Source: Gammaproteobacteria bacterium TMED226 (GTDB lineage Bacteria > Pseudomonadota > Gammaproteobacteria > Magnimaribacterales > D2472). Taken from it: DNA of 33,522 nt. Positions 4,336 to 31,646 of the stretch are shown one piece after another. The stretch is taken from the NCBI GenBank assembly GCA_002169105.1, contig NHJX01000008.1, positions 20,656 through 54,177 of the forward strand, in the 5' to 3' direction. The notes beneath the pieces were generated by a model. The model was not told the DNA's origin. It saw only the letters and a program-made list of their open reading frames with translations, and searched no databases. Positions within the stretch are counted from its first letter, which is position 1, and each line of letters starts with the position of its first letter. Position numbers and translations under genes: made by a program.

Positions 4336-4947
4336 ATGATTTTATATTCAGATAGAGACGACCACTACAGTCAACGGGTTAGAATAGTTCTTGCAGAGAA
4401 AGATATTGCTGCAGAAATAAATGAATCAAAACAGGATGAAACTCCTGATGAAATTCTTTCAATAAGCCCTTATCACAAATTACCAATCTTAGTTGATAGA
4501 GATCTTGCTATTCATGATCCTTCAGTAATGATGGAGTATTTAGATGAAAGATTTCCTCATCCTCCTCTACTGCCGGTTTATCCTGTTGAAAGAGCTAACA
4601 GCAGAACACTGATGCTAAGAATTGATAGAGAATGGTGCCCGCTAATAGACCTATTAATAGAAGGCAAGAAGGCTGAGAAAGAACTTATGAAGATTAGAGA
4701 AGAACTATTACATGAAATATCATCAATAGCGCCTACATTTAAAGAGTTTAAATATTTTATGAGTGATGAATTTACACTTGTTGATTGTTGTTTCGCACCA
4801 ATATTATGGAGACTTTCTTCAGTTGGAATAAAACTTCCAGTAAATAGGCATCTCAAACCTCTACTTGATTATCAAAAAAATGTTTTTGAGAGACCTGGAT
4901 TCCTTGACAGTCTTTCCTCGCTAGAAAGAGACCTTAAGAGCGATTAG
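4336..4947 (+). CDS. sspA: Stringent starvation protein A, GST-fold RNA polymerase-associated factor
   Basis: SspA has a glutathione S-transferase fold but no GST activity. In E. coli it binds RNA polymerase and acts in starvation and acid survival. The 203 residues keep VRIVLAEKDI near the start, the central signature MEYLDERFPHPPLLPVYPV (about 65-83) that is nearly identical to E. coli, and FTLVDCCFAPILWRL near the C-terminus. A strong Shine-Dalgarno AGGGGA (4326-4331) sits just before the ATG. In Pseudomonas and E. coli sspB follows directly; here it is absent and the next gene is on the opposite strand, with a 14-base tail-to-tail overlap. Confidence 0.95.
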   Translation: MILYSDRDDHYSQRVRIVLAEKDIAAEINESKQDETPDEILSISPYHKLPILVDRDLAIHDPSVMMEYLDERFPHPPLLPVYPVERANSRTLMLRIDREWCPLIDLLIEGKKAEKELMKIREELLHEISSIAPTFKEFKYFMSDEFTLVDCCFAPILWRLSSVGIKLPVNRHLKPLLDYQKNVFERPGFLDSLSSLERDLKSD

Positions 4948-5869
4948 TAATACTATTTGAAGATATTTTCCAAATGGGAAGATTTCTGTTGATGCATTGA
5001 TTTTTTCTGATTTTAGTTGGGCCTGTTTCAAGCATAATATTACTTTTAAAAAGGTTATTTTGATAAATTTTTTCGATGGTGAGGAAGTCTGAAATTAGTA
5101 ACTTTTCAAATTCATTTTCAATGCTGTCGATTTTTTTCTTATTTGAAATATTGTCAATTATTTTTTTTGATAAAGGTATATAGGTATTCTCAAAATCAAC
5201 TAGTTTCTTAAGATTATTTGCATTATGAAATATTTGTGTTGATGAATAGAAGTCTATATTTAAAGCAGAACTTCTGAAGATAGGAACAATTGTTTTACCT
5301 AGATCATAGTTTATAAGAAAATACATTTTTGAAATATCATTTCTGATTCTTGGCGAATGTTCAATGTTTATATTTCTATCAATGCTAGACATATTTGAAT
5401 GTTTTTCAATACTTAAATCACGCCCTAATATTTTATCTATCTTATTTTTATAATTTTCTTCATCAATTAAAAAATATAGTTCCAAGGGATATTTATTTTT
5501 TAGATTTTGAGCTATTTTTTTAAATTCATCAGAATAGACTATTAATATTTTTTTGTTGCTATCTCTTGATGAGTTAAATACTACAGATTCTAAAAAGATA
5601 TTTTGCTCTTCAATAAAACTATTACAAAAATACTTTAAATCTGATTTCAAGATATTATTTCCTAGTTTGTACGAATCTGTTTTATCAAAATCTACAGCAA
5701 ACTGAAGATCTTCTTTTAATAAGTATTCAATGATCATTTCTTTATTTTTATTAGATGTCTGAAGATCTAAGTTAAGAACTAATTGTTCTTTCTGTTGTAT
5801 TGATGTGGTTGTACATGAGGCCAAGAAAAGCATCACAGGGAATAAGATTGATGTTAAGCTAAATCTCAT
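4934..5869 (-). CDS. lpoA: LpoA-like outer membrane lipoprotein (PBP1A activator), reduced
   Basis: A 311-residue predicted lipoprotein: basic start, hydrophobic stretch, and a lipobox LASC with the lipidated Cys at residue 19. Thr at +2 suggests outer-membrane sorting. LpoA of gammaproteobacteria reaches through the wall to activate the peptidoglycan synthase PBP1A. The assignment rests on position, because divergence from rsmI is conserved in E. coli and Pseudomonas, and on local similarity to the LpoA C-terminal domain: RIRNDISKMYFLI followed by IVPIFRS and IDFYSSTQIF, and a terminal INRNLPIWKI. LpoA usually has about 570-680 residues with an N-terminal helical repeat domain, which seems to be missing. 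The protein is rich in Lys, Asn and Ile. The neighbours yraN, diaA and dolP are absent. It could also be an unrelated lipoprotein. Confidence 0.65.
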   Translation of the reverse strand: MRFSLTSILFPVMLFLASCTTTSIQQKEQLVLNLDLQTSNKNKEMIIEYLLKEDLQFAVDFDKTDSYKLGNNILKSDLKYFCNSFIEEQNIFLESVVFNSSRDSNKKILIVYSDEFKKIAQNLKNKYPLELYFLIDEENYKNKIDKILGRDLSIEKHSNMSSIDRNINIEHSPRIRNDISKMYFLINYDLGKTIVPIFRSSALNIDFYSSTQIFHNANNLKKLVDFENTYIPLSKKIIDNISNKKKIDSIENEFEKLLISDFLTIEKIYQNNLFKSNIMLETGPTKIRKNQCINRNLPIWKISSNSITNRS

Positions 5870-9908: not shown

Positions 9909-11520
9909 TAAAAATATATTATTAAATTGGAGATTTGCTTTGATCTCTTTTAGTGTTTTTGTCGTTTTAGCTGCCATTATCTTTAAAATGTTCTCTATCT
10001 ATTTTTTTGACAGTAAATTCCTTAAAAATGAAGCTAATAAGAGATATGTATCATACAAAGATATTAATTCAGTTAGAGGGAGTATTTTTGATAGAAATAA
10101 TTTTCCATTAGCTGTATCAATAGTTAACTATGATTTATATGCCTTAAAAGGTTTCAAGAAGTCTCAACTCATGAGTCTATCAGAAGTACTAGACCTAGAA
10201 TCGGATGTAATAAAAGACTCTTTCAGCAGAAAAACTATTTTAAAAAAGAATTTATCTAATAAAGAAATATTAGATATAAAAATGTTAAATCTTAGTAATT
10301 TTGAGATTGAAATGAGACATAGCAGGCATTACCCTCTGGGTGAACAAATAGGGACATTGATAGGTTTTTATGGAACAGATGGGGCTCAAGAAGGCCTTGA
10401 GAAGAGCTATGATAATGTTCTTTCTGGTGTTAACGGAAGAGAGAAATTCTTTAAAAATGCAAAGCAAGAAATTATTTCTCAACCTATTGAAGTAATTAAA
10501 ACAGTTCAAGGTGAAGATGTTTATTTAACTATTGATGCAACCTTACAATTCTACTCATATAAATACCTTGTTGAGGCAATAAAAAGAAACAAAGCCAAAG
10601 CAGGCACAGTTATTATTTTAGATAATAAAAAAGGTGAGGTTCTTGCAATGGCTAGTTATCCTTCCTATAACCCAAACAACTCTCAAAGAAAAATCCAAAA
10701 AAATAGAGCATTAGTCGAAGCATATGAGCTTGGATCTGTTCTAAAGCCAATTGTTCTTTCCAAGGCGCTTGAAAATGGATTATTTTTGCCAGATGAATCT
10801 ATTGAAATTCCAAGAAGATTAAACTTGAATAATAAAATTATTGTAGATTCTAAAAATCATGAAAAGTTAACACCTAAGGAAATAATTGCTGTTAGTAGCC
10901 AAGTAGGAGCTTCAAAAATAGCTATAGAGCTTGGTTACGAAGAATTAAAGAAAAATTATTATGATTTTGGATTTACAAAGCCAATATCAATAAATTTTCC
11001 CTCTAGCTCTTTTGGATATATGAATATAAAAGAAAAAGTTTCAGATAAAGAACTGGCAAGTTTGGGTTACGGTTATGGAATAGAGATAACACCCTTTCAA
11101 TTAGCTTCAGCTTATTCTGTATTTGCAAATGGTGGAGAATTTAAAGATTTTCAGATATTTAAAGATCAAGAAGTTAGATCGCAAAAAATCATATCCAGTG
11201 ATTCTGCTTTACAAATCCTTGATGCTTTAAAGATGGTTGTAAAAGATGGAACTGGAAAAGCAGCAAATGTAAAAGGCTTTTCTGTAGGAGGAAAAACTGG
11301 AACTGCTCATCAAACTAAAAAAGGATCAGGATATGCAGAAAATTTATATATAGCCTCTTTTGTTGGTATTACTCCTATAAGCGACAAATCCCTCACTATT
11401 TTTGTTTCAATAGAAAATCCTGGATTAAATTCTTATACAGGTGGTGCAGTTGCAGCGCCTGTTTTTGCAAAGATTGCAGAAAGTTCTTTAAATCATTTAG
11501 GTTATTTTGAAGATGAATGA
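9901..11520 (+). CDS. ftsI: Peptidoglycan D,D-transpeptidase FtsI (PBP3)
   Basis: The septal class B penicillin-binding protein that crosslinks peptidoglycan with FtsW. The 539 residues have an N-terminal membrane anchor (about 13-36), a dimerisation module with VRGSIFDRNNFPLA (58-71), and a transpeptidase domain. The acyl-enzyme serine is S279 in SVLK (279-282), within YELGSVLKP where most homologues have YEPGS. KTGTA is at 465-469. The second active-site motif, normally SxN (SSNVG in E. coli), reads SSQVG (332-336), so the Asn is replaced by Gln. The rest of the domain is well conserved (GYGYGIEITPFQLA, YTGGAVAAPVF), so it is probably active. Overlaps ftsL and murE by eight bases each. Confidence 0.96.
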   Translation: MNNKNILLNWRFALISFSVFVVLAAIIFKMFSIYFFDSKFLKNEANKRYVSYKDINSVRGSIFDRNNFPLAVSIVNYDLYALKGFKKSQLMSLSEVLDLESDVIKDSFSRKTILKKNLSNKEILDIKMLNLSNFEIEMRHSRHYPLGEQIGTLIGFYGTDGAQEGLEKSYDNVLSGVNGREKFFKNAKQEIISQPIEVIKTVQGEDVYLTIDATLQFYSYKYLVEAIKRNKAKAGTVIILDNKKGEVLAMASYPSYNPNNSQRKIQKNRALVEAYELGSVLKPIVLSKALENGLFLPDESIEIPRRLNLNNKIIVDSKNHEKLTPKEIIAVSSQVGASKIAIELGYEELKKNYYDFGFTKPISINFPSSSFGYMNIKEKVSDKELASLGYGYGIEITPFQLASAYSVFANGGEFKDFQIFKDQEVRSQKIISSDSALQILDALKMVVKDGTGKAANVKGFSVGGKTGTAHQTKKGSGYAENLYIASFVGITPISDKSLTIFVSIENPGLNSYTGGAVAAPVFAKIAESSLNHLGYFEDE

Positions 11521-12982
11521 ATATGAAAACATTTTAGGCATTCAAATTCCAAAAGATACAAAAATCTCAAGTGTCACTAACTCATCAAAGAAAGTGATAA
11601 AAGATTCAATCTTTTTTGGACTGCAAGGAACAAAGACCCATGGTAGTAATTTTGCAGAAGAAGCCATTAATCTTGGAGCTTCTATTGCAGTTCATAATGA
11701 TCCAAACGTAATAATAAAAAATGAAAAGATTCTATATATAAAAAATTTAGAAGAAAAAATAATTAAATTTCTTGATGCTTTTTATAAAATTGACATTAAT
11801 AGTAATAATTTTTTCACATTTACAGGAACAAATGGTAAAACATCTACTGCTCATCTTTGCCATCAATTGCTAGTTAATATGGGATATGAATCAATCTATA
11901 TAGGCACTCTTGGATGTCAACATAATAATAATAAATTCCAAACATCATTCTCATCAAAGACAACTCCAGACATTTTTGAGTTATTTGAGATAATAAGTTC
12001 TTTAGATTGGGGTTTGGATTCGTTGAATATATGTTTAGAAATTTCTTCACATGCACTTGATCAGAAAAGACTTGGTGATATCTTTTGGCTGAACTCAGCA
12101 TCTATTTTAAATATCGCAGATGAGCATTTGGATTATCATAAAAATATATCTTCATACAGGGATGCAAAATTTGAAATCTTTAAAATTAATTCATCCATTA
12201 AGTTAATTGATGAAGGCTCTTTAAAATATTCTGAAAAATATAATTTTATAAAAGATAATGATCATGAGCTTACATGTATTAGTAATAAAAATGATTTTTC
12301 AGATATTTTTTATAAAATAACAAAAATATCAATAAGCAAATCTGAATTCGAAATATTAATCAATAATGGGCCTCAAGGATATGAAGATGACAACAACAAG
12401 AAGTATAAATTTTCATGTAAGCTCTTTCCAGAATTCAATGTCAGTAATCTAGTTTTTGCAATTTGCTCAATAGGATTTGATAAATTTTATGATGATTCAA
12501 TTAATGACCTTTCTTTCTTAAAACTTCCTAAAGGAAGATTAGATATTATAGAAGGTATTCCTGTTAATATTATTATTGACTTTGCTCATAATGAACATTC
12601 TTTTAATATTCTTTTAAATTCTATCAAAAGATACTTTGATAATTTAATTGTAGTCTTCGGTTGTGGCGGTGACAGAGACAAGATTAAACGTTCGAAAATG
12701 TTGAAAGTTGCTATAGAGAATGCGTTCAAAATAATTTTTACATCAGATAATTCTAGAAGTGAAAATTTTGAAGACATTTATGAGGATGCTAAATATGATA
12801 ATGATCTTAGGGATGTAATAGTTATTGAAGACAGAAAAGAAGCCATCATTCAAGGAAGCAAGTTAATAAATGATAATGACTGTATGTTAATTCTTGGAAA
12901 AGGACACGAAGAAACTCAAGAAATTAATGGAATAATTTCACATTTTAGTGATTATGAGGTGGTATATGAAATTTATAGCTAA
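11513..12982 (+). CDS. murE: UDP-MurNAc-tripeptide ligase MurE
   Basis: Adds the third amino acid, normally meso-diaminopimelate in Gram-negatives, to UDP-MurNAc-L-Ala-D-Glu in the cytoplasm. The 489 residues carry the P-loop GTNGKTS (105-111), LEISSHALDQKRL (175-187), DEHLDYH (203-209), the probable carbamylated Lys K219 (YRDAKFEIF), EFNVSN (307-312), FGCGGDRDKIKR (382-393) and GKGHEETQ (462-469). The substrate-specificity motif, DNPR in DAP-adding enzymes, is DNSR (412-415); the Arg that binds DAP is kept. I chose the ATG at 11513, overlapping ftsI by eight bases, over a TTG two codons earlier. Overlaps murF by 17 bases. Confidence 0.94.
   Translation: MNEYENILGIQIPKDTKISSVTNSSKKVIKDSIFFGLQGTKTHGSNFAEEAINLGASIAVHNDPNVIIKNEKILYIKNLEEKIIKFLDAFYKIDINSNNFFTFTGTNGKTSTAHLCHQLLVNMGYESIYIGTLGCQHNNNKFQTSFSSKTTPDIFELFEIISSLDWGLDSLNICLEISSHALDQKRLGDIFWLNSASILNIADEHLDYHKNISSYRDAKFEIFKINSSIKLIDEGSLKYSEKYNFIKDNDHELTCISNKNDFSDIFYKITKISISKSEFEILINNGPQGYEDDNNKKYKFSCKLFPEFNVSNLVFAICSIGFDKFYDDSINDLSFLKLPKGRLDIIEGIPVNIIIDFAHNEHSFNILLNSIKRYFDNLIVVFGCGGDRDKIKRSKMLKVAIENAFKIIFTSDNSRSENFEDIYEDAKYDNDLRDVIVIEDRKEAIIQGSKLINDNDCMLILGKGHEETQEINGIISHFSDYEVVYEIYS
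12956..12962 (+). promoter_or_regulatory. Ribosome binding site deciding the murF start
   Basis: GAGGTGG lies inside the murE 3' end and three bases before the ATG at 12966. It is one of few clear Shine-Dalgarno sequences inside this cluster and supports that ATG over the upstream GTG (12948) and ATG (12954). Confidence 0.6.
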
Positions 12983-14306
12983 TACAGCTGATTTAAGCAT
13001 ATTTCTTGGCATTCCTATTAAAAAGCACCAACCAATTAAAAGCATTTCATCAGATACAAGAGCTATAAAAAAAGATTCTTTATTTATTGCTATTAAAGGT
13101 AAAAATTTTGATGGCAATGATTTTGTTGAAGAGGCCCTAGCCAAAGGTGCTGTTGTTGTTATAACAGATCATCAGCGTTACAAAAATAACATAAATAAAA
13201 GAATTATTTATGTTGATGACACAATAAACGCATTAAAAAAAATATCCCAGAACATTATTAAAGATTATCAAGGTTCTGTAATAGCAATTACCGGAAGCAA
13301 TGGCAAAACCACCACCACTAATATTATTGCCAAAACATTAAGAAATAACTCAAAGACTTTGAAAAACTTTAATAATGAAATAGGAGTTCCTTTAAGCATT
13401 ATGAATGCATCTCCTAAATCAAAATATTTAGTTCTCGAAATTGGTGCATCCAAATTCAAAGATATCGACTATCTAAGCAGAATTATAAAACCATATATCG
13501 GTGTTATTACAAATATAGGGAATTCTCATTTAGAAATATTAAAAAATATTGATGGTGTATTTAAAGTAAAATCGGAAATTATTGAAAACATCCAAAAAAA
13601 AGGATTTTTAATTATCCCAGGTGATAATAGAAAACATCTTATAAAATGGAGGAAAATAAGATCTGATATCCAATTCATAACATTTGGAATAAATATAGAT
13701 TCAGATTTTTATGCAGAAAAAGTAAAAATTAAATCCAATGGACTGAGCTTTACAATTTCTTCAAAGCTATTAAAAAAATCTATTTTAATCAACACATCTA
13801 TAGAGGGAGAGCATAATATTAAAAATATTCTTGCTGCTTTTGCAGTTTATTTTTGTTTAGGGAAAGAACCAAATAATTTCTCTGAACTTTTAAGCAACAA
13901 TAGTTTTAATAATTTAAGGCAAATCAAATCAAAATGGATTAAAGGGTCGACATTAATTGATGATACCTATAATGCAAATCCTGACTCAACTAAGAAATCT
14001 ATTGATTTATTAAGTAATTATCAAAAAAATACTGTCCTATTATTAGGAGACATGTTGGAATTGGGAAGATACAAAAATAAATTCCATAAAGATATTGGCA
14101 AGTATGCTAAGAAGAAAGGAATAAATTTACTTCTTGGGTATGGCAATCTTACAGAGCATGCAATAAAAGGTTTTGGTGAAAAAGGTATTTTCTTTGATAA
14201 TGAAAGTGATTTAAAGAGATATTTAAAACAAAATATAACATCAAAAGATGTTATCTTGATTAAAGGTTCCCGAGGTATGAGAATGGAGAGATTCATAAAT
14301 GTTTGA
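12966..14306 (+). CDS. murF: UDP-MurNAc-tripeptide-D-Ala-D-Ala ligase MurF
   Basis: Joins D-alanyl-D-alanine to the muropeptide tripeptide, finishing the soluble precursor. The 446 residues contain ISSDTRAIKKDSLFIAI near the N-terminus, the P-loop GSNGKTT (110-116), NNEIGVPLSI, LEIGASKFKDIDYL, TNIGNSHLE, a probable carbamylated Lys in VFKVKSEI, GEHNIKNILAAF and DDTYNANPDS, the classic MurF set. The ATG at 12966 is supported by the preceding GAGGTGG and by the family start. Upstream murE overlaps by 17 bases and mraY by eight. Confidence 0.96.
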   Translation: MKFIANTADLSIFLGIPIKKHQPIKSISSDTRAIKKDSLFIAIKGKNFDGNDFVEEALAKGAVVVITDHQRYKNNINKRIIYVDDTINALKKISQNIIKDYQGSVIAITGSNGKTTTTNIIAKTLRNNSKTLKNFNNEIGVPLSIMNASPKSKYLVLEIGASKFKDIDYLSRIIKPYIGVITNIGNSHLEILKNIDGVFKVKSEIIENIQKKGFLIIPGDNRKHLIKWRKIRSDIQFITFGINIDSDFYAEKVKIKSNGLSFTISSKLLKKSILINTSIEGEHNIKNILAAFAVYFCLGKEPNNFSELLSNNSFNNLRQIKSKWIKGSTLIDDTYNANPDSTKKSIDLLSNYQKNTVLLLGDMLELGRYKNKFHKDIGKYAKKKGINLLLGYGNLTEHAIKGFGEKGIFFDNESDLKRYLKQNITSKDVILIKGSRGMRMERFINV

Positions 14307-15384
14307 GTATTTAGGCACAATTTTAGTATCAGTTGATCCTGGTTTTGATGTTTTGAGATATTTAACAGTTAGAACAATTGGAGGTACTGTAACAGCATTG
14401 TTAATCTCAATCTTAATGGGGCCATTAATAATTAATTTCTTAAAATCAATGCAATTTCAGCAATATGTTAGAGAGGATGGCCCTAAATCACATCATCAAA
14501 AAACAGGAACGCCCACCATGGGCGGACTATTAATCTTATCCTCTCTCATAATTTCAACCCTACTTTGGGCAGATCTAGGTAATAGATATATATGGGTTGT
14601 TATGGGTGTAACAGTAGGATTTTCAGTAATAGGATTCTTTGATGATTATTTAAAAATTAAATATAAAAGCTCTGATGGGTTATCTTCTAAACAAAAGATC
14701 CTCTTTCAATCTATTATTGCTTTCGTATCTATGTTCTATCTATATTATTCAGCTGAAATAATTCCTGAAACATCTTTTATTGTTCCATTCCTTAAAGATC
14801 TGGTAATTCCTATGTCACCCTTTATATTTATTTTTACTGGCATGTTTGTTCTTATAGGTTCATCTAATGCAGTAAACTTAACCGATGGTCTTGATGGTCT
14901 CGCCATTCTGCCATCAGTTCTAATAGGTGGAGCACTAGGCTTGATAGCATATGCAATGGGCAATCAGTTAATTGCTGATTATCTTTACTTACCTCATCTT
15001 CCTCTATCAGGTGAATTGATTGTATTCTGCGGAGCTCTTATAGGATCAGGGATAGGCTTTTTATGGTACAACACTTATCCAGCTCAAATATTTATGGGAG
15101 ACATAGGGTCCCTAGCATTGGGAGCTATTTTAGGAATAATTGCAATAATATTGAGGCATGAACTAGTCTTTGCAATTATGGCAGGAGTATTTGTAGTAGA
15201 AACATTAAGCGTTGCAATCCAAGTTGTATCATATAAGACTCGAGGCAAGAGAGTCTTTTTAATGGCACCAATTCATCATCATTTTGAATTAAAGGGTTGG
15301 GCTGAACCTAAAATTATTGTTCGTTTTTGGATTATTACTCTTGTTTTAATATTGATAGCTTTAGCAACACTAAAATTAAGGTAA
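14299..15384 (+). CDS. mraY: Phospho-MurNAc-pentapeptide translocase MraY
   Basis: Integral membrane enzyme that transfers phospho-MurNAc-pentapeptide to undecaprenyl phosphate, giving lipid I. The 361 residues (E. coli 360) form about ten hydrophobic segments. Signatures: GPKSHHQKTGTPTMGG (61-76), the metal-binding FFDDYLK (113-119), NAVNLTDGLDGLA near 191-203, MGDIGSLALG, and the C-terminal PIHHHFELKGW that binds Mg and UDP-MurNAc. The family N-terminus (EYLGTILV followed by FDVLRYLTVRTI) supports the start. Confidence 0.97.
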   Translation: MFEYLGTILVSVDPGFDVLRYLTVRTIGGTVTALLISILMGPLIINFLKSMQFQQYVREDGPKSHHQKTGTPTMGGLLILSSLIISTLLWADLGNRYIWVVMGVTVGFSVIGFFDDYLKIKYKSSDGLSSKQKILFQSIIAFVSMFYLYYSAEIIPETSFIVPFLKDLVIPMSPFIFIFTGMFVLIGSSNAVNLTDGLDGLAILPSVLIGGALGLIAYAMGNQLIADYLYLPHLPLSGELIVFCGALIGSGIGFLWYNTYPAQIFMGDIGSLALGAILGIIAIILRHELVFAIMAGVFVVETLSVAIQVVSYKTRGKRVFLMAPIHHHFELKGWAEPKIIVRFWIITLVLILIALATLKLR

Positions 15385-15387
15385 TCA

Positions 15388-16413
15388 ATGAAGTCTCTTA
15401 TATATGGTTATGGAGAAACTGGTAAATCTTTTGAAAGATATTTAAATAAAAAAAAACTAAATTTTGAAATATTTGATATAAATCATTCTAAATATAATAA
15501 GAATTATGACCTAACAGAATTTAACGAAATCTTATGTAGTCCGGGTATTCCAAGAAAGATATTCAATGAAATAATTAACATTAACAAAAATGTATTTACT
15601 GATATTGATATTTTTTTTAAGGAAGATAACTCAATAAAAATAGGAATAACTGGAACTAATAGAAAAAGCACAACTGCTTATCACCTTCAGCAGTTATTAG
15701 AAAATCATGATTCTTCAAATTTAATTGGAAATATAGGCAATACAATGCTTGATTTCATTAATAATGATAAGAAGTATTCAATTATTGAGCTATCTAGTTT
15801 TCAACTTGATAAAATGATAAAAAATGATTTAGATTATGGGGTTTTGCTCAATATTGATTTGGATCACTTAGACTATCATGGTAATTTTGAAAATTATAAA
15901 ACATCAAAAGAAAAGATCCTCTTAGCTAAAAATAGCATTTCAAATGAAATAAACCCATATAAGTTATTTGAGTGGATTACATCTTTTAAGGCAGATAAAA
16001 TTGAGTTGAAAAATCTCCCATACAGATTCCAAAAAATTTCAGAAAATATAATTAATGATTCGAAATCAACCAATTTTCATTCCTTATCATATGCTTTAAA
16101 TAAAGCTAATAGTTTATTTGAAAATTTAGAATACATTTTAATAGTATGTGGAGACCCTAGAAAAGAAGGATATAGAAAGATCACAATTGAAGGTCCTCGA
16201 GAGATTCTCATTTTTGGAGATCATCGCAGAGAGATAGATAGATGTATAAACCACCATAAAAAAACTATTTATAATTCTCTAGAGGATATATCGAACTCAA
16301 TAAAAGGAAATAAAAATATTCTTTTTTCACCAGGCTATCCAAGTGGTAATGATTACAAGAATTTTGTTGAAAGAGGAGAACACTTCAATCAACTTCTAAA
16401 AGTCCATCTATGA
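15388..16413 (+). CDS. murD: UDP-MurNAc-L-alanine:D-glutamate ligase MurD, shortened and with altered P-loop
   Basis: Adds D-Glu to UDP-MurNAc-L-Ala. At 341 residues it is about 100 shorter than E. coli MurD (438). Recognisable parts: an N-terminal nucleotide-fold start with CSPGIPR (50-56), NIGNT (115-119), IIELSSFQLD (132-141), DLDHLDYHGN (157-166), the carbamylated-Lys candidate K174, LPYRF (210-214), NDSKSTN (223-229), and SPGYPSGNDYKNFVERG (314-330). The ATP loop is GTNRKST (89-95), with Arg replacing the Gly before the catalytic Lys. Between K174 and LPYRF only about 35 residues remain where E. coli has about 100; the GxHN part of the GxHNxxN motif is lost, although NEIN (186-189) could be the remaining NxxN. 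The frame is intact and overlaps ftsW by four bases, so it is expressed in context. Active reduced enzyme or decaying gene cannot be told apart here. Confidence 0.88.
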   Translation: MKSLIYGYGETGKSFERYLNKKKLNFEIFDINHSKYNKNYDLTEFNEILCSPGIPRKIFNEIININKNVFTDIDIFFKEDNSIKIGITGTNRKSTTAYHLQQLLENHDSSNLIGNIGNTMLDFINNDKKYSIIELSSFQLDKMIKNDLDYGVLLNIDLDHLDYHGNFENYKTSKEKILLAKNSISNEINPYKLFEWITSFKADKIELKNLPYRFQKISENIINDSKSTNFHSLSYALNKANSLFENLEYILIVCGDPRKEGYRKITIEGPREILIFGDHRREIDRCINHHKKTIYNSLEDISNSIKGNKNILFSPGYPSGNDYKNFVERGEHFNQLLKVHL

Positions 16414-17519
16414 ATATTAATAAAAATGATATCTTAGTTATATTGCCTCTAATAGCCTTATTGCTTTTAGGAATAATTATGGTTGCCTCTTCAAGCATTT
16501 ATATCGCAGATGATATGAAATCAAATCCTTTTCATTTTGCACAAAATCAAAGTCTTTTTATTGCAATTGGAATTATCGCAATGGTAGTTTTTTTATTATT
16601 ACCTTCAAACTTTCTTTATAGAGCTGATTGGATATTTATGTTGATGAGCGTTATTTTATTGATTGCTCTTTTTATTCCTGATGTTGGATCAACTGTTAAT
16701 AACAGTACTAGGTGGATTCGATTAGGGCCTATCAACATTCAACCATCAGAAATATGTAAATTTAGTATTATTTTATATATATCAGGATATTCAGTTAGAC
16801 GAACTTCAGAAATTGACTCTTTGAGGGGTTTTGTAAAACCCTTAATTTTATTATTCATAATTTCAATTCTAATTATGTTTCAGTCAGATCTTGGTTCTAC
16901 AGCTATTATCTGTATGTTAGTAGTTGGAATTCTTTTTTATGCAGGCATATCGTATCTTCAATTAGGGCTCTTAATTTCATTAATTGCTCTTTTGGGTTAT
17001 TTGGCAATTATAGGTTCCCCAGAGAGATTTTCTAGAATATTAGCTTTTAGTGACCCTTTTGCTCCTGAAATAGCTCGAGATGCAGGATGGCAATTATCAA
17101 ATTCCTTACTTGGTATTGGTCAAGGAGGGTGGTTTGGAGTTGGATTAGGAAACAGTTTTCAAAAAATTCATTTTTTACCAGAAGCTCATACTGATTTTAT
17201 TTTTGCAATATTGGTTGAAGAATTAGGTATTATAGGAGCATTATTTCTAATATCATTATTTGTAGTTTTATTGATAGGATTGATATATATTTCATTTGAT
17301 TCCTTCAAAAAGAAAAGATTTTTTCAAGGATATGTTGTTTTTGGAGTATTTCTTTTGATTGCAATTCAAGCATTCTTTAATATTGCTGTAAATATAGGAT
17401 TAGTTCCAACAAAAGGCTTAACTCTTCCCTTTATTAGCTATGGAGGAACTAGCATGATAATAATGCTTTCATTAATAGGTATTGTATTAAGAATTAATAA
17501 TGAAAATAAATTATTTTAG
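16410..17519 (+). CDS. ftsW: Septal peptidoglycan glycosyltransferase FtsW
   Basis: SEDS-family polymerase that extends septal glycan strands together with FtsI. The 369 residues have about ten transmembrane helices. Signatures include STRWIRLGPINIQPSEICK, the long periplasmic loop with GWQLSNSLLGIGQGG and GVGLGNSFQK, FLPEAHTDFIFA containing the catalytic Asp equivalent, VNIGLVPTKGLTLPFISYGG and the C-terminal MIIMLSLIGIVL. E. coli FtsW has an N-terminal cytoplasmic extension that is absent here. Starts inside the murD stop (ATGA) and is followed by murG after three bases. Confidence 0.96.
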   Translation: MNINKNDILVILPLIALLLLGIIMVASSSIYIADDMKSNPFHFAQNQSLFIAIGIIAMVVFLLLPSNFLYRADWIFMLMSVILLIALFIPDVGSTVNNSTRWIRLGPINIQPSEICKFSIILYISGYSVRRTSEIDSLRGFVKPLILLFIISILIMFQSDLGSTAIICMLVVGILFYAGISYLQLGLLISLIALLGYLAIIGSPERFSRILAFSDPFAPEIARDAGWQLSNSLLGIGQGGWFGVGLGNSFQKIHFLPEAHTDFIFAILVEELGIIGALFLISLFVVLLIGLIYISFDSFKKKRFFQGYVVFGVFLLIAIQAFFNIAVNIGLVPTKGLTLPFISYGGTSMIIMLSLIGIVLRINNENKLF

Positions 17520-17522
17520 ATT

Positions 17523-18581
17523 ATGAAATTTTTAATTGTAGCTGCAAAAACTGGTGGACATGTATTCCCCGCTTCAGCAATTGCTAAATCATTAGTTAAA
17601 AATAATTATGAAGTTGTTTTCATTGGTACAGGTACTGAAATTGAAAAAAGTGCATACGAAGAAATAGATTCAAAAATATATAATCTATCTATTGAGGGTT
17701 TCCGTGGTAGTAACTTGATAATCAAATTTAAAGTTATTTACCAAATTTTTGTTAACATTTTCAAAGTAATTAAAATTATTAAAGAAGATCAAATAGATGC
17801 AATGATTGGTTTTGGAGGCTTTATAACTGTTCCATCCGGGATCGCATGTTGGCTAACTAGAAAACCAATATTTTTACACGAACAAAATGCCGTATTAGGT
17901 TCTGCTAATAAATTATTATCAAAAATATCTAAGATTAATTTTATTGGATTTCCTATAAAGGGTTTAAAAAAAGCTGTGCTTTCTGGAAACCCGATAAGAG
18001 ACTTCTTTAATGATAGTCAAAAGAATTACATCGGGAAAGATAATGAGGAAATAAAAATCTACATAACTGGTGGTAGCCAAGGCGCAGAATATATCAACCA
18101 AACTGTCCCGTTAATTTTTAAAAATCTTCCATATGAGCTAAAAATTAGACATCAATGTGGCAAAGACAAGCTAGAAAAAGTTAAAGATTTATACAAGTCA
18201 AACGAGATCAATGCTGAGGTGAATGAATTTTATAAAAATCCCAATGAGCAAATTATTTGGTCTGATTTCGTAATATCAAGAGCTGGTGCTATTAGTTTAT
18301 CAGAGATAACCTCGCTGAAAAGGGGTGTTGTCATGATTCCACTTCCCACATCAATAGATAATCATCAGTTATGGAATGCCAAAAGCATTGAGGGAATTAG
18401 CATGGGTATTTTGCATGAACAAAAGGAGCACATAAATCATCTTCAAAAGAAGGTAGAAACTCTGATTAAAAATAAAGTCTTTATTAGTTGGAAGAATACT
18501 GAAAACTTAGATCACATAAATTCAGCAAAAATAATTATTGCAAATATAGAAGATTTTTTTGAGAACAATGAAATTATTTAA
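17523..18581 (+). CDS. murG: UDP-GlcNAc:lipid I N-acetylglucosaminyltransferase MurG
   Basis: Peripheral membrane GT-B glycosyltransferase that converts lipid I to lipid II. The 352 residues carry KTGGHVFPA (9-17), HEQNAVLG (119-126), GNPIR (155-159), GGSQGA (183-188) and SRAGAISLSEI near 254-264. The first glycine-rich loop, normally GGTGGH, reads AKTGGH, so two glycines are replaced while the Thr, both following glycines and the His are kept. Otherwise normal. Overlaps murC by 14 bases. Confidence 0.95.
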   Translation: MKFLIVAAKTGGHVFPASAIAKSLVKNNYEVVFIGTGTEIEKSAYEEIDSKIYNLSIEGFRGSNLIIKFKVIYQIFVNIFKVIKIIKEDQIDAMIGFGGFITVPSGIACWLTRKPIFLHEQNAVLGSANKLLSKISKINFIGFPIKGLKKAVLSGNPIRDFFNDSQKNYIGKDNEEIKIYITGGSQGAEYINQTVPLIFKNLPYELKIRHQCGKDKLEKVKDLYKSNEINAEVNEFYKNPNEQIIWSDFVISRAGAISLSEITSLKRGVVMIPLPTSIDNHQLWNAKSIEGISMGILHEQKEHINHLQKKVETLIKNKVFISWKNTENLDHINSAKIIIANIEDFFENNEII

Positions 18582-19962
18582 AAAAGTAAAAAGAATTCAC
18601 TTTGTAGGTATCGGTGGTGCTGGAATGATTGGCATTGCAAGAGTGCTATTAAAAAAGGGTTATAAAATATCTGGCTCTGATATTATAGATTCTGATGATT
18701 TAAAGAAGCTAAGGGAGGATGGCGCCAAAGTTTCTATAGGACATTTAAAAGAAAATATTAAAGGTTCAAATTTAGTAGTAGTTTCATCAGCAATTGATAA
18801 GAGTAATCCAGAAATCATTAAAGCAAAAAAAGATTCGATAACGATTATTCCAAGAGCAGAAATGCTTGGAAGCATTATGATTGGCTATGAAAGTATTGCT
18901 GTTGCTGGAAGTCATGGTAAGACAACTACCACTAGCATGATTGCAAAAATTTTGAGTGTTGCAAATTTGAGTCCAACATATGTTGTTGGAGGAAAGGTTC
19001 TAAGTACTGATGAAAATTCTGATCTTGGCGAGGGTAAGTATCTTGTTGCAGAGGCTGATGAAAGTGATGGAACATTTACTCATCTTCAACCCGATGTAGC
19101 TGTTTTAACAAACATAGATGACGATCATTTAGTTCATTACAATAATATATTTGATAATCTTCTAGACTCATTTGTTTCGTTTTCTGAAAATGTTCCATTT
19201 TATGGCTATCTTTTAATTAATAGCGACGATAAGAATATAAAAAAGATTTCAAAAAGAATATCCAGAACACAAATAAGTTTTGGTGAATCAAAAAAAGCTA
19301 ATTATCAAATAATTAATATTGAACCTGTAAATGGTAGACAAAATTTTGAGATTTTTGATAAAAAGAATAATAAAAATCACAAGTTTAAATTAAATTTACC
19401 AGGTAGGCATAATGTTTTTAATGCAGCTGCTTCTATCGGTGTTGCCATGGAGGAAGGAATTCCAATTAGCGCTATAAAAAAAGGTATTTCAGAATTTTCA
19501 GGTGTAAGCAGAAGATATGAGAAGCATAATATAAAGATTAACCAAAAAAAAATTGTTCTAATAGATGATTATGGCCATCATCCTCTTGAAATAGATTCAA
19601 ATATTAATGCTTATAGAGAGGAATTCCCTAATAAAAAAGTTTGCATGATATTTCAACCTCATAGATTTTCTAGAACTGCACAACTCTTTGATGACTTTAT
19701 AAGAGTACTCAATAAAACAGACTCATTAATATTATTAGACATATATTCAGCCAGTGAAAAGCCTATTAGAGGAATTCATTCAAGAACAATTGCAGAATCA
19801 ATAAAACAAATGGGCCATAAAGATGTGACATATCTTAAAAGTCATGATGATGTGATAGATTTAATTATGAACAAGATAGATTCTTTTGACATTGTAGTCA
19901 CTCAAGGCGCTGGCAGTATTTCAAAAGTTTGTGAATCGATAAAAGATAAATGGGCAAAATAA
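18568..19962 (+). CDS. murC: UDP-N-acetylmuramate:L-alanine ligase MurC
   Basis: First of the Mur ligases: adds L-Ala to UDP-MurNAc. The 464 residues begin with IHFVGIGGAGMIGIA (10-24), then the P-loop GSHGKTT (114-120), EADESDGTF, NIDDDHLVHY, GRHNVFNAAASIG, FSGVSRRYE, DDYGHHPLEI, FQPHRFSRT and VTQGAGSIS, which identify MurC. The ATG at 18568 is chosen over the in-frame TTG at 18561-3 because MKLFKKVKRIHFVG matches the family start. murB, often next to murC, is not in this window. Overlaps murG by 14 bases and ddl by 13. Confidence 0.96.
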   Translation: MKLFKKVKRIHFVGIGGAGMIGIARVLLKKGYKISGSDIIDSDDLKKLREDGAKVSIGHLKENIKGSNLVVVSSAIDKSNPEIIKAKKDSITIIPRAEMLGSIMIGYESIAVAGSHGKTTTTSMIAKILSVANLSPTYVVGGKVLSTDENSDLGEGKYLVAEADESDGTFTHLQPDVAVLTNIDDDHLVHYNNIFDNLLDSFVSFSENVPFYGYLLINSDDKNIKKISKRISRTQISFGESKKANYQIINIEPVNGRQNFEIFDKKNNKNHKFKLNLPGRHNVFNAAASIGVAMEEGIPISAIKKGISEFSGVSRRYEKHNIKINQKKIVLIDDYGHHPLEIDSNINAYREEFPNKKVCMIFQPHRFSRTAQLFDDFIRVLNKTDSLILLDIYSASEKPIRGIHSRTIAESIKQMGHKDVTYLKSHDDVIDLIMNKIDSFDIVVTQGAGSISKVCESIKDKWAK

Positions 19963-30209: not shown

Positions 30210-30514
30210 ATAGGCCATATTATTTTTTAGTTACTTTTCTTATTTTGCTTATAATTCTTCTTTCTAAAAGCATTTTTTTTAGTGAAAATAATTATTCAAA
30301 GAGAAATGATTTAATTAAGGATAATACCATTCAAGAAAAAAAGAACATTGAGTTAAACAAGGAAAATGAAATTCTTCAATTTGAAATTATGAATGCTCAA
30401 AACTCAAATGATCATGTTGAGAATTTTGCAAGAGAAAAACTAAATTTAACATATCCTGAAGAAGATTTTGTTTCTTTTAAAGAAGATAAAGAAAAAAATG
30501 ATGAAAAAAAATGA
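30206..30514 (+). CDS. ftsB: Cell division protein FtsB
   Basis: Small bitopic protein forming the FtsQLB complex with FtsL (9636) and FtsQ (20860). The 102 residues have one transmembrane helix (about 5-20), a coiled coil rich in Asn, Lys and Glu (about 30-65), and the DivIC/FtsB tail motif HVENFAREKLNLTYPEEDFV. A charged Lys/Glu/Asp end overlaps ispDF by 17 bases. The position between eno and ispD is the standard gammaproteobacterial one. Confidence 0.9.
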   Translation: MNRPYYFLVTFLILLIILLSKSIFFSENNYSKRNDLIKDNTIQEKKNIELNKENEILQFEIMNAQNSNDHVENFAREKLNLTYPEEDFVSFKEDKEKNDEKK

Positions 30515-31646
30515 TCTATTAGTTGTTATTGCTGCTGCTGGAGTTGGAGAAAGATTTGGACAGGATATTCCGAAGCAATATGCAAAGATAAATCACCAAA
30601 CGGTTATTGAGATGGCAACTTGGCCTTTTATAAATTCCAAATACGTATCTAAAATCATTATAGCTATCTCTAAAGAGGATGTTGAAATTGAGAAACAGAG
30701 TTTTTATGGGCAAGAAAAAATAGAATTTATTTATGGTGGAAAAACTAGACAAGAATCAATATATAACGCATTAAAAAATACTAATAAGAAATTCAACTAT
30801 GTCATAACTCATGATGCAGCGCGTCCAAATATATTTGAAGACGATATTAGAAATTTATATAAAGATATTAAGAAAACAAAATCAAGCTGTTCTTTTTTAT
30901 ACACTCCTGTATATGATTCTATTAAAAAAAATGGAGTAATTGAGGAAACTATAGATAAAAACAAATTTTATTTAGTTCAAACTCCTCAAATATCCCAATT
31001 TTCTGATTTGAAATTATCAATAAAGAAATGTATTGATAAAGATATATATTGTCCTGATGAATCCTCTGCTATTGAATATTCAAATCTGAAATTATCAAAA
31101 ATTAAAGGCAGAAGGTCTAATATCAAAATTACAGAACCTGATGACTTGGAGATACTTAATAAATTCTTAACAAGGACTGGAATGGGATTTGACCTTCATA
31201 AGTATGAAAGGGGCTCTGGAATAATTCTTGGAGGGTATAAGATTGAATGTGATTTTAGAATAATTGCACATTCCGATGGGGATGTTCTTCTTCATTCAAT
31301 TGCAGACTCAATTTTAGGTGCATCAGGCCTTGGTGATATTGGAAAGCACTTTTCAGATCAAGATAAAAAAAATAAGAACTTAGATAGCTCAAAGATAATA
31401 AAATTTTGCCTTATGAAATTAGATGAATTAAATTTAGAAATCTATAATGTCGACACTACTGTAATATGTGAACAACCAAAGATTAACCCCCACAGAGAGA
31501 AGATTTTAAAAAAGTTGTCAAAAATCTTGGGAATTTCAACTGCTCGTATAGGTTTGAAAGCTACCACTTCTGAGGGAATAGGCATTATTGGAAAAAACAA
31601 AGCAATTGCTGTTCAAAGTCTTGTAAATCTTAGAGATAAAAAATGA
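30498..31646 (+). CDS. ispDF: Bifunctional IspD-IspF enzyme of the MEP isoprenoid pathway
   Basis: One 382-residue protein combines two enzymes of the non-mevalonate pathway. Residues about 1-222 are IspD (2-C-methylerythritol 4-phosphate cytidylyltransferase): AAAGVGERFGQDIPKQY (12-28), GGKTRQESIYNAL, THDAARPN, PQISQF, and DESSAIEY. Residues about 225-382 are IspF (MECDP synthase): TGMGFDLHKY with metal ligands D232 and H234, AHSDGDVLLHSIADSILGA, GDIGKHFSDQD, and TTSEGIGIIGKNKAIAVQS. The join (DDLEILNKFLTRTGMGFD) has almost no linker. Starts at ATG 30498 or 30501 inside ftsB; an in-frame TTG at 30468 is unlikely. Pseudomonas and E. coli have two separate genes. Confidence 0.95.
   Translation: MMKKNDLLVVIAAAGVGERFGQDIPKQYAKINHQTVIEMATWPFINSKYVSKIIIAISKEDVEIEKQSFYGQEKIEFIYGGKTRQESIYNALKNTNKKFNYVITHDAARPNIFEDDIRNLYKDIKKTKSSCSFLYTPVYDSIKKNGVIEETIDKNKFYLVQTPQISQFSDLKLSIKKCIDKDIYCPDESSAIEYSNLKLSKIKGRRSNIKITEPDDLEILNKFLTRTGMGFDLHKYERGSGIILGGYKIECDFRIIAHSDGDVLLHSIADSILGASGLGDIGKHFSDQDKKNKNLDSSKIIKFCLMKLDELNLEIYNVDTTVICEQPKINPHREKILKKLSKILGISTARIGLKATTSEGIGIIGKNKAIAVQSLVNLRDKK

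Follow-up and report, generated by a model that had tools for sequence, protein, structure and literature searches.

The reduced murD gene and its neighbours

The window, by which we mean the whole stretch of 33,522 nucleotides that was analysed, comes from a 775,625-base draft genome of Gammaproteobacteria bacterium TMED226 that is 63% complete. It carries a dcw cluster in the order ftsI-murE-murF-mraY-murD-ftsW-murG-murC-ddl, and the same gene order is found around murD in E. coli K-12 (Table 1). The murD gene is flanked by mraY and ftsW, the position expected of a MurD, and its product is 97 residues below the E. coli K-12 protein (438 codons), in good agreement with an earlier note on this DNA that had put the loss at about 100 residues. 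The frame is indeed open, as that note had it, its 341 codons being free of stops, and the nearby murC, murE, murF, murG, mraY and ftsW genes are open frames as well. The normal P-loops that had been read in MurC, MurE and MurF are there (GSHGKTT, GTNGKTS and GSNGKTT, respectively), and in family f1 of the SAR86 order the cell-wall genes adjoining murD are normal in size. A scan of the dcw region for promoters and terminators gave nothing above shuffle level.

Table 1. Coordinates in the window of the reduced murD gene, its parts and its neighbours.
Feature	Position	Strand	Remarks
murE	11507..12982	+	normal size and P-loop
murF	12948..14306	+	normal size and P-loop; structure-prediction control (from 12966)
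mraY	14299..15384	+	ends 3 bases 5' of murD; normal length
murD, reduced form, 341 aa	15388..16413	+	ATG start, no internal stop (ORF list)
P-loop GTNRKST	15652..15672	+	Arg92 codon at 15661-15663 (E. coli Gly114)
Kept central-domain landmarks	15730..15909	+	alignment, residue table
Shortened K174-R213 stretch	15910..16023	+	spacing 39 vs 104; GxHNxxN missing
C-terminal domain landmarks	16024..16374	+	alignment, residue table
ftsW	16410..17519	+	start overlaps murD stop (ATGA)
murC	18559..19962	+	normal size and P-loop

MurD was the best of 18 NCBIfam families for the window protein, which places it by descent among the MurDs. Its score against TIGR01087 was 178.2 bits (E 2.9e-52) and did not reach the curated cut-off of 211.95, so that a curated model can omit such genes; some reduced relatives of genus g5 came out narrowly above this cut-off (212.5-220.7 bits, both pieces summed). 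The 17 named relatives of the reduced MurD are SAR86-cluster records or Gammaproteobacteria MAGs. Elsewhere in the window, IspD and IspF (YgbB) domains occur within a single ORF (30468-31643), and a 311-aa ORF on the reverse strand (4934-5869), running opposite to the direction of its neighbours, had no Pfam match at E 0.001.

Residues lost and residues kept

The 97-residue loss is split between the stretch separating the equivalents of K198 and R302 (65 residues), the portion before the P-loop Lys (23) and the rest of the protein (9). The K198-R302 spacing is 39 in the window MurD and 104 in E. coli, the K115-K198 spacing is 81 vs 83, the P-loop Lys is residue 93 vs 116 (Met counted), and 129 residues remain from R302 on vs 136. 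The earlier note had located the loss in the second half of the central domain, which is correct for the 65 residues, but the other 32 of the 97 lie outside it. By analogy with the description of MurT, the last parallel strand and the antiparallel sheet would be missing from the K174-R213 stretch (window numbering). MurT, the Mur-ligase relative of MurT/GatD, is altered in its central domain between the sixth strand and the antiparallel sheet according to the accessible text of PMC6085368; however, it has a 50-residue insertion there and retains Asn270 and Asn273.

We compared 125 aligned MurD rows from fetched genomes only (124 from SAR86 and one from E. coli), of which 78 are reduced (66 from f1 and 12 from f4); the split copy of G003 and the genomes without a match do not enter, and f2 and f4 are represented by samples of 10 and 12 genomes. 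The role of K198 is described in the accessible text of PMC3060825. In the central domain, N115, E134, S136, N155, D159-H160 and K174 of the window protein correspond to N138, E157, S159, N178, D182-H183 and K198 (the carbamylated Lys), and in the C-terminal domain R213, D224, K226, T228, S319 and R329 correspond to R302, D317, K319, T321, S415 and R425, while Lys259 of GDPRKE is likely the equivalent of K348. Seventeen landmarks spanning the P-loop, the metal-binding and the substrate sites, namely the equivalents of N113, K115, S116, N138, E157, S159, D182, H183, K198, R302, D317, K319, T321, N322, S415, R425 and G426, are kept in all 78 reduced sequences, so that the catalytic landmarks of a MurD are present throughout. 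The N178 equivalent is found in 77 of the 78 (K in one), as is the Lys of GxPxK, which the alignment places one residue off K348. T36, R37 and L416 have given way to other residues in most or all of these sequences, the first two belonging to the UDP site. The segments SSFQL, DHLDYH, SKSTN and NFVERG, which had been listed as kept, are all present in the translation.

GxHNxxN is among the motifs that identify Mur ligases. In the reduced sequences, H267 and N268 are gaps in 78/78 and N271 is a gap in 77/78, and the motif is already degenerate in the long MurD forms of SAR86. The earlier note had seen the GxH part as lost, with the implication that the NxxN half survives. The first point stands, but the second does not: the SNEIN at 15940-15954 is variable among relatives (SYEMN, SFEMD, TKEAN, TKQSD), and since its letters are not conserved, we regard the entire motif as lost.

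The unusual P-loop was also read correctly, and GTNRKST together with a K198-R302 spacing of 39 is common to all 30 aligned sequences of the source genus, so that both the size and the Arg were borne out by comparison within the clade. Among the 78 reduced sequences as a whole, the position of Gly114 is occupied by Arg in 44, Lys in 5, Gly in 28 and Ala in 1, which by family gives Arg 44, Gly 17 and Lys 5 in f1 (66 sequences) and Gly 11 and Ala 1 in f4 (12 sequences). The Arg is found in genera g1 (30/30), g6 (3/3), g8 (1/1) and g9 (10/10), the Lys in g3 (5/5), and Gly in g2 (1/1), g4 (3/3) and g5 (13/13). Gly or Ala thus occurs in 29 of the 78 reduced sequences, and in the alignment the Acinetobacter MurD (PDB 7sir) has Ala there. 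Since this loop position varies among MurDs, the Arg would have arisen after the deletion or apart from it; judged by these sequences, it is lineage-specific and uncoupled from the deletion. Only Asp141, Leu161 and the presence of Phe244 covary with Arg92, a pattern confounded by descent.

Structure prediction with AlphaFold (14 rows; alignment A2, without L102 and L103, which have ambiguous bases, and without L107 and L108) gave mostly confident N- and C-terminal domains, with a mean pLDDT of 67.4 and a pTM of 0.47. The modelling that the earlier note had proposed was thus successful for these two domains only, the pLDDT falling below 50 at residues 80-133, 148-202 and 204-210, that is, over most of the central domain (about 80-210). 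As a control, the MurF of the window, predicted from 14 rows (13 from the same records; alignment A3, in which L107 replaces L105), reached a mean pLDDT of 83.0 and a pTM of 0.80. Low alignment depth alone therefore does not explain the failure with MurD, and the shrunken domain may be unusual to the predictor or may fold in a non-usual way. A Foldseek search of the PDB returned MurD in 33 of 34 matches at E <= 0.001, with rmsd values of 9.9-17.2; these matches probably arise through the other domains.

Distribution and descent of the reduced form

In the source genus, 31 of 34 genomes have a match and each of the six near-complete genomes has exactly one, the three match-less genomes being 71-80% complete. 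One copy (G003) is in two pieces, split by a TAA. The deletion is common to 48 more sequences, from seven further genera and a second SAR86 family. Across the SAR86 order, where 168 of 203 genomes match the MurD model (E 1e-30), the frames of the 124 fetched sequences measure, from stop to stop, 432-464 in f3, 398-430 in f2, 447-449 in f1 genus g10, 414-417 in f1 genus g7, 342-368 in all other f1 sequences and 355-388 in f4. The K198-R302 spacing is 65-68 in f2, 76 in g7 and 38-47 in the reduced clade. MurF is short too: from stop to stop it measures 385-389 aa in four f4 genomes (L189-L192) and 415-422 in four f2 genomes (L182-L185), whereas the f1 and f3 genomes used for comparison have 444-460.

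Searching more widely with a reduced profile, at cut-offs too strict for a highly diverged reduced MurD, we obtained matches in 32 of 369 genomes of the class (E 1e-25), with a full-profile match in one piece only in four, all SAR86, and in 34 of 398 genomes of the phylum (E 1e-28), where the source genome alone matched the full profile. Outside SAR86, the K198-R302 stretch is shortened to 67-70 residues in G259, G331, G443 and G538 and to 65 in G907 (phylum), while the spacing is 87 in G388, G492 and G250. The partly shortened MurDs (f2, G259, G331, G443, G538, G907 and G950) are thus intermediate forms that have lost residues in the same stretch but, where measured, exceed the window MurD there by 26 to 31 residues; f2 (10/10) and these four genomes of the class (G259, G331, G443 and G538) still have an Asn at the last place of HNxxN. 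The 401-aa MurD of G907 (L232:1471-2673), with its similar smaller loss, is encoded in a 1.2-Mb, 100% complete genome. In its order, 103 of 117 genomes match and two have the 401-aa form, the other frames listed being 422-494 besides two short ones (219 and 150). The 401-aa MurD of G950 is 90% identical to that of G907 and is likened to the shortened forms by this relatedness. As for viral copies, six stretches fit a pattern and none codes for a relative.

In a MurD tree of 28 rows and 327 columns, from which the deleted block was excluded, the 15 reduced rows, which sample all of the groups with the deletion, form one clade (100/100) with f4 inside and with a long stem of 1.38 changes per column. 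A quick-method tree of six neighbour proteins (28 rows, 2394 columns) instead keeps f1 together (SH-aLRT 100) with f4 as its sister (pair 100), and groups g5, g7 and g10 (97). Topology tests on MurD rejected a single f1 clade (p-AU 4e-06) and a g5+g7+g10 group (p 0.000126), but rejected neither the reduced f1 without f4 (p 0.073) nor f1+f4 (p 0.276). These results point to a single origin of the reduction, perhaps in an ancestor of f1 and f4, although the long branches weaken this, and would require that murD was replaced between lineages at least once, in g7 and g10 or in g5. According to the accessible text of PMC11582366, SAR86 comprises four families, with a common origin for two of them, Suzuki/D2472 and the fast-evolving CHAB-I-7; f1 and f4 would correspond to these two. 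In the close genomes G017 and G022 (L202/L203), dS is 1.31 for murE, 1.07 for murF and 0.49 for murG vs 0.16 for murD, which looks like an exchange of parts of the dcw cluster.

Function of the reduced enzyme and the source of D-Glu

The reduced MurD shares with E. coli MurD (PDB 1UAG, 2JFG, 1E0D and others) the gene order, the P-loop Lys, the Mg ligands, the carbamylated Lys, the hinge Arg and the Glu-site residues, and its best structure matches are MurDs. It differs from it in its missing residues and GxHNxxN motif, in the Arg before the P-loop Lys, in the changes at T36, R37 and L416 and in scoring under the TIGR01087 cut-off. Being single-copy, conserved across genera, under purifying selection and in possession of the catalytic landmarks, it suits the earlier suggestion of a minimal MurD, and we consider that it is very probably a real, conserved and working one, ordinary in role and unusual in build. 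Most probably it is the cell's only MurD and works as such, its stripped form having become fixed in one branch of SAR86. An active enzyme would follow the E. coli reaction, in which ATP serves to phosphorylate the L-Ala carboxylate of UDP-MurNAc-L-Ala for its coupling to D-Glu, and would rely for this on the Lys and Ser retained in the P-loop, on Glu and His as Mg ligands, on the carbamylated Lys and on the Glu site of the C-terminal domain. The P-loop, Asn155 and the C-terminal domain would together hold ATP, with no contribution from the HNxxN segment, which usually assists in adenine binding, and Arg92 would be a lineage-specific adjustment of the loop, neither a cause nor a consequence of the deletion.

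The central domain of MurD (residues 94-298) binds ATP, as stated in the accessible part of PMC3527612. In Mpl, His323, Asn327 and an Asn that precedes the metal His by five residues are thought to bind adenine (PMC3060825), and in MurT Asn132, Asn270 and Asn273 (PMC6085368), as far as the accessible texts of these papers go; from their spacing, Mpl His323/Asn327 and MurT Asn270/Asn273 would belong to HNxxN. The window MurD retains the first adenine Asn (N155) and HNxxN is gone. It is conceivable, if rather doubtful, that this is a Mur ligase without the standard adenine pocket, with the smallest working central domain of any MurD, in which the nucleotide would be held by its phosphates and the closing C-terminal domain and other NTPs could perhaps be used. 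If this were true, the trend in spacing from about 104 through 67 to 39 would make the stretch dispensable in MurD generally.

A search for MurI (TIGR00067) at E 1e-10 was negative in all 202 SAR86 genomes and positive in 9 of 14 control genomes, and a search for a divergent MurI via PF01177 gave weak matches in 14 of 56 genomes, none above the cut-off. The one match of these 14 that was read, on L154, was rejected as MurI, as it resembles PanB. With no MurI match in SAR86, the probable supplier of D-Glu is an enzyme resembling D-amino-acid transaminase. In the source genome, the likely source is the gene at L194:2865-3689 (contig C12), whose best NCBIfam matches are D-amino-acid transaminases and which lies directly 3' of a dacA-like gene (D-Ala-D-Ala carboxypeptidase matches). 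Of the 50 f1-f3 genomes searched with the D-amino-acid transaminase model, 43 have a 275-300 aa frame scoring 168-235 bits, all below the cut-off of 277; the frames of G068, G072, G081 and G085 (280-302 aa) score 144-161 bits, and G118, G124 and G163 have only a frame of 309-320 aa (144-148 bits). Each of six f4 genomes has one class IV aminotransferase frame (302-330 aa), and the two that were read are both above the IlvE cut-off; therefore no D-Glu source was found in f4 among the six genomes searched.

The absence of MurI and this lone, IlvE-type frame in f4 would fit another scheme, in which the reduced enzyme adds L-Glu, like the MurD2 of Xanthomonas, and a MurL epimerase then yields D-Glu. 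MurD2 (in Xanthomonas and others, with MurL) is likewise a MurD-like enzyme of genomes without a MurI found, and its L-Glu use is set by E197 and R358, in place of D182 and K348, according to the accessible part of PMC8788868. However, this Glu182/Arg348 signature is absent from the reduced MurD, which has Asp in 78/78 and, at the likely K348 place, a Lys (that of GxPxK) and not an Arg in 77/78. With D182 and K319 kept in 78/78 and this Lys near K348, D-Glu use is therefore indicated, by that part of PMC8788868, and the transaminase-like gene beside the dacA-like gene in the source genome, like those in most other f1-f3 genomes searched, also speaks against L-Glu, making the scheme very improbable. 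It is very improbable, too, that the reduced MurD is active only as part of a complex, with another Mur ligase or MraY, in which a second protein makes up for what is missing; such a partner would suit both the central domain that AlphaFold leaves unplaced when alone and the tightness of the dcw cluster, but among the adjoining genes no neighbour is consistently longer.

Constraint on the gene was estimated from Nei-Gojobori counts in 22 close pairs, not independent, from eight groups of relatives. The pooled dN/dS (sum dN / sum dS) was 0.123 for MurD, 0.098 for MurC, 0.149 for MurF, 0.205 for MurG and 0.219 for MurE, and lower for FtsW (0.075) and MraY (0.033), which are more constrained than MurD. 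The median was 0.121 for the reduced MurD (21 pairs) vs 0.205 for the long-form MurD of f3 (30 pairs), and in a separate run on 50 genus pairs it was 0.135 for MurD and 0.031 for MraY. Constraint on the reduced MurD matches that on the normal Mur ligases and is weaker than that on FtsW and MraY. Neither the genomes of the genus nor the assembled part of the source genome, which is 63% complete, yielded a second murD. The extra TIGR01087 matches of the source genome are the murC, murE and murF of the window and a 432-aa ORF on contig C12, which from its motifs we take to be Mpl. The earlier note had considered a first step of loss, which the dN/dS values and the single clade of reduced sequences do not support, and the full-length second MurD with relaxed selection that it had named as a refutation was not encountered in these genomes. 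That the gene has lost MurD function, with another role or in an eroding pathway, would agree with the cut central domain, the altered P-loop and the one split copy, but it is highly improbable given the landmarks kept in 78/78, a dN/dS like that of other Mur ligases, the open mur, mraY and ftsW frames beside it and the lack of any other MurD found. An assembly or sequencing error, conceivable in a 63% complete draft, has a negligible probability because independent assemblies, including named SAR86 SAGs and MAGs, share the reduced form, with the same loop and spacing in 30/30 aligned genus sequences, even though the G003 copy is split.

MurD is essential and a drug target. In the literature on SAR86 MurD, peptidoglycan, glutamate racemase and shortened MurD, we found no report of such a form among the matches listed, and the accessible part of the SAR86 isolate paper (PMC11582366) contains none of the terms 'peptidoglycan', 'cell wall' and 'racemase'. 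The missing MurI, together with the missing transaminase in the f4 genomes searched, raises the question of where D-Glu originates in these bacteria. A working minimal MurD of this kind, a natural enzyme without GxHNxxN, would put to the test which elements of the ATP site a ligase requires, and, being under normal constraint in a very common ocean lineage, it would define a minimal ligase core.
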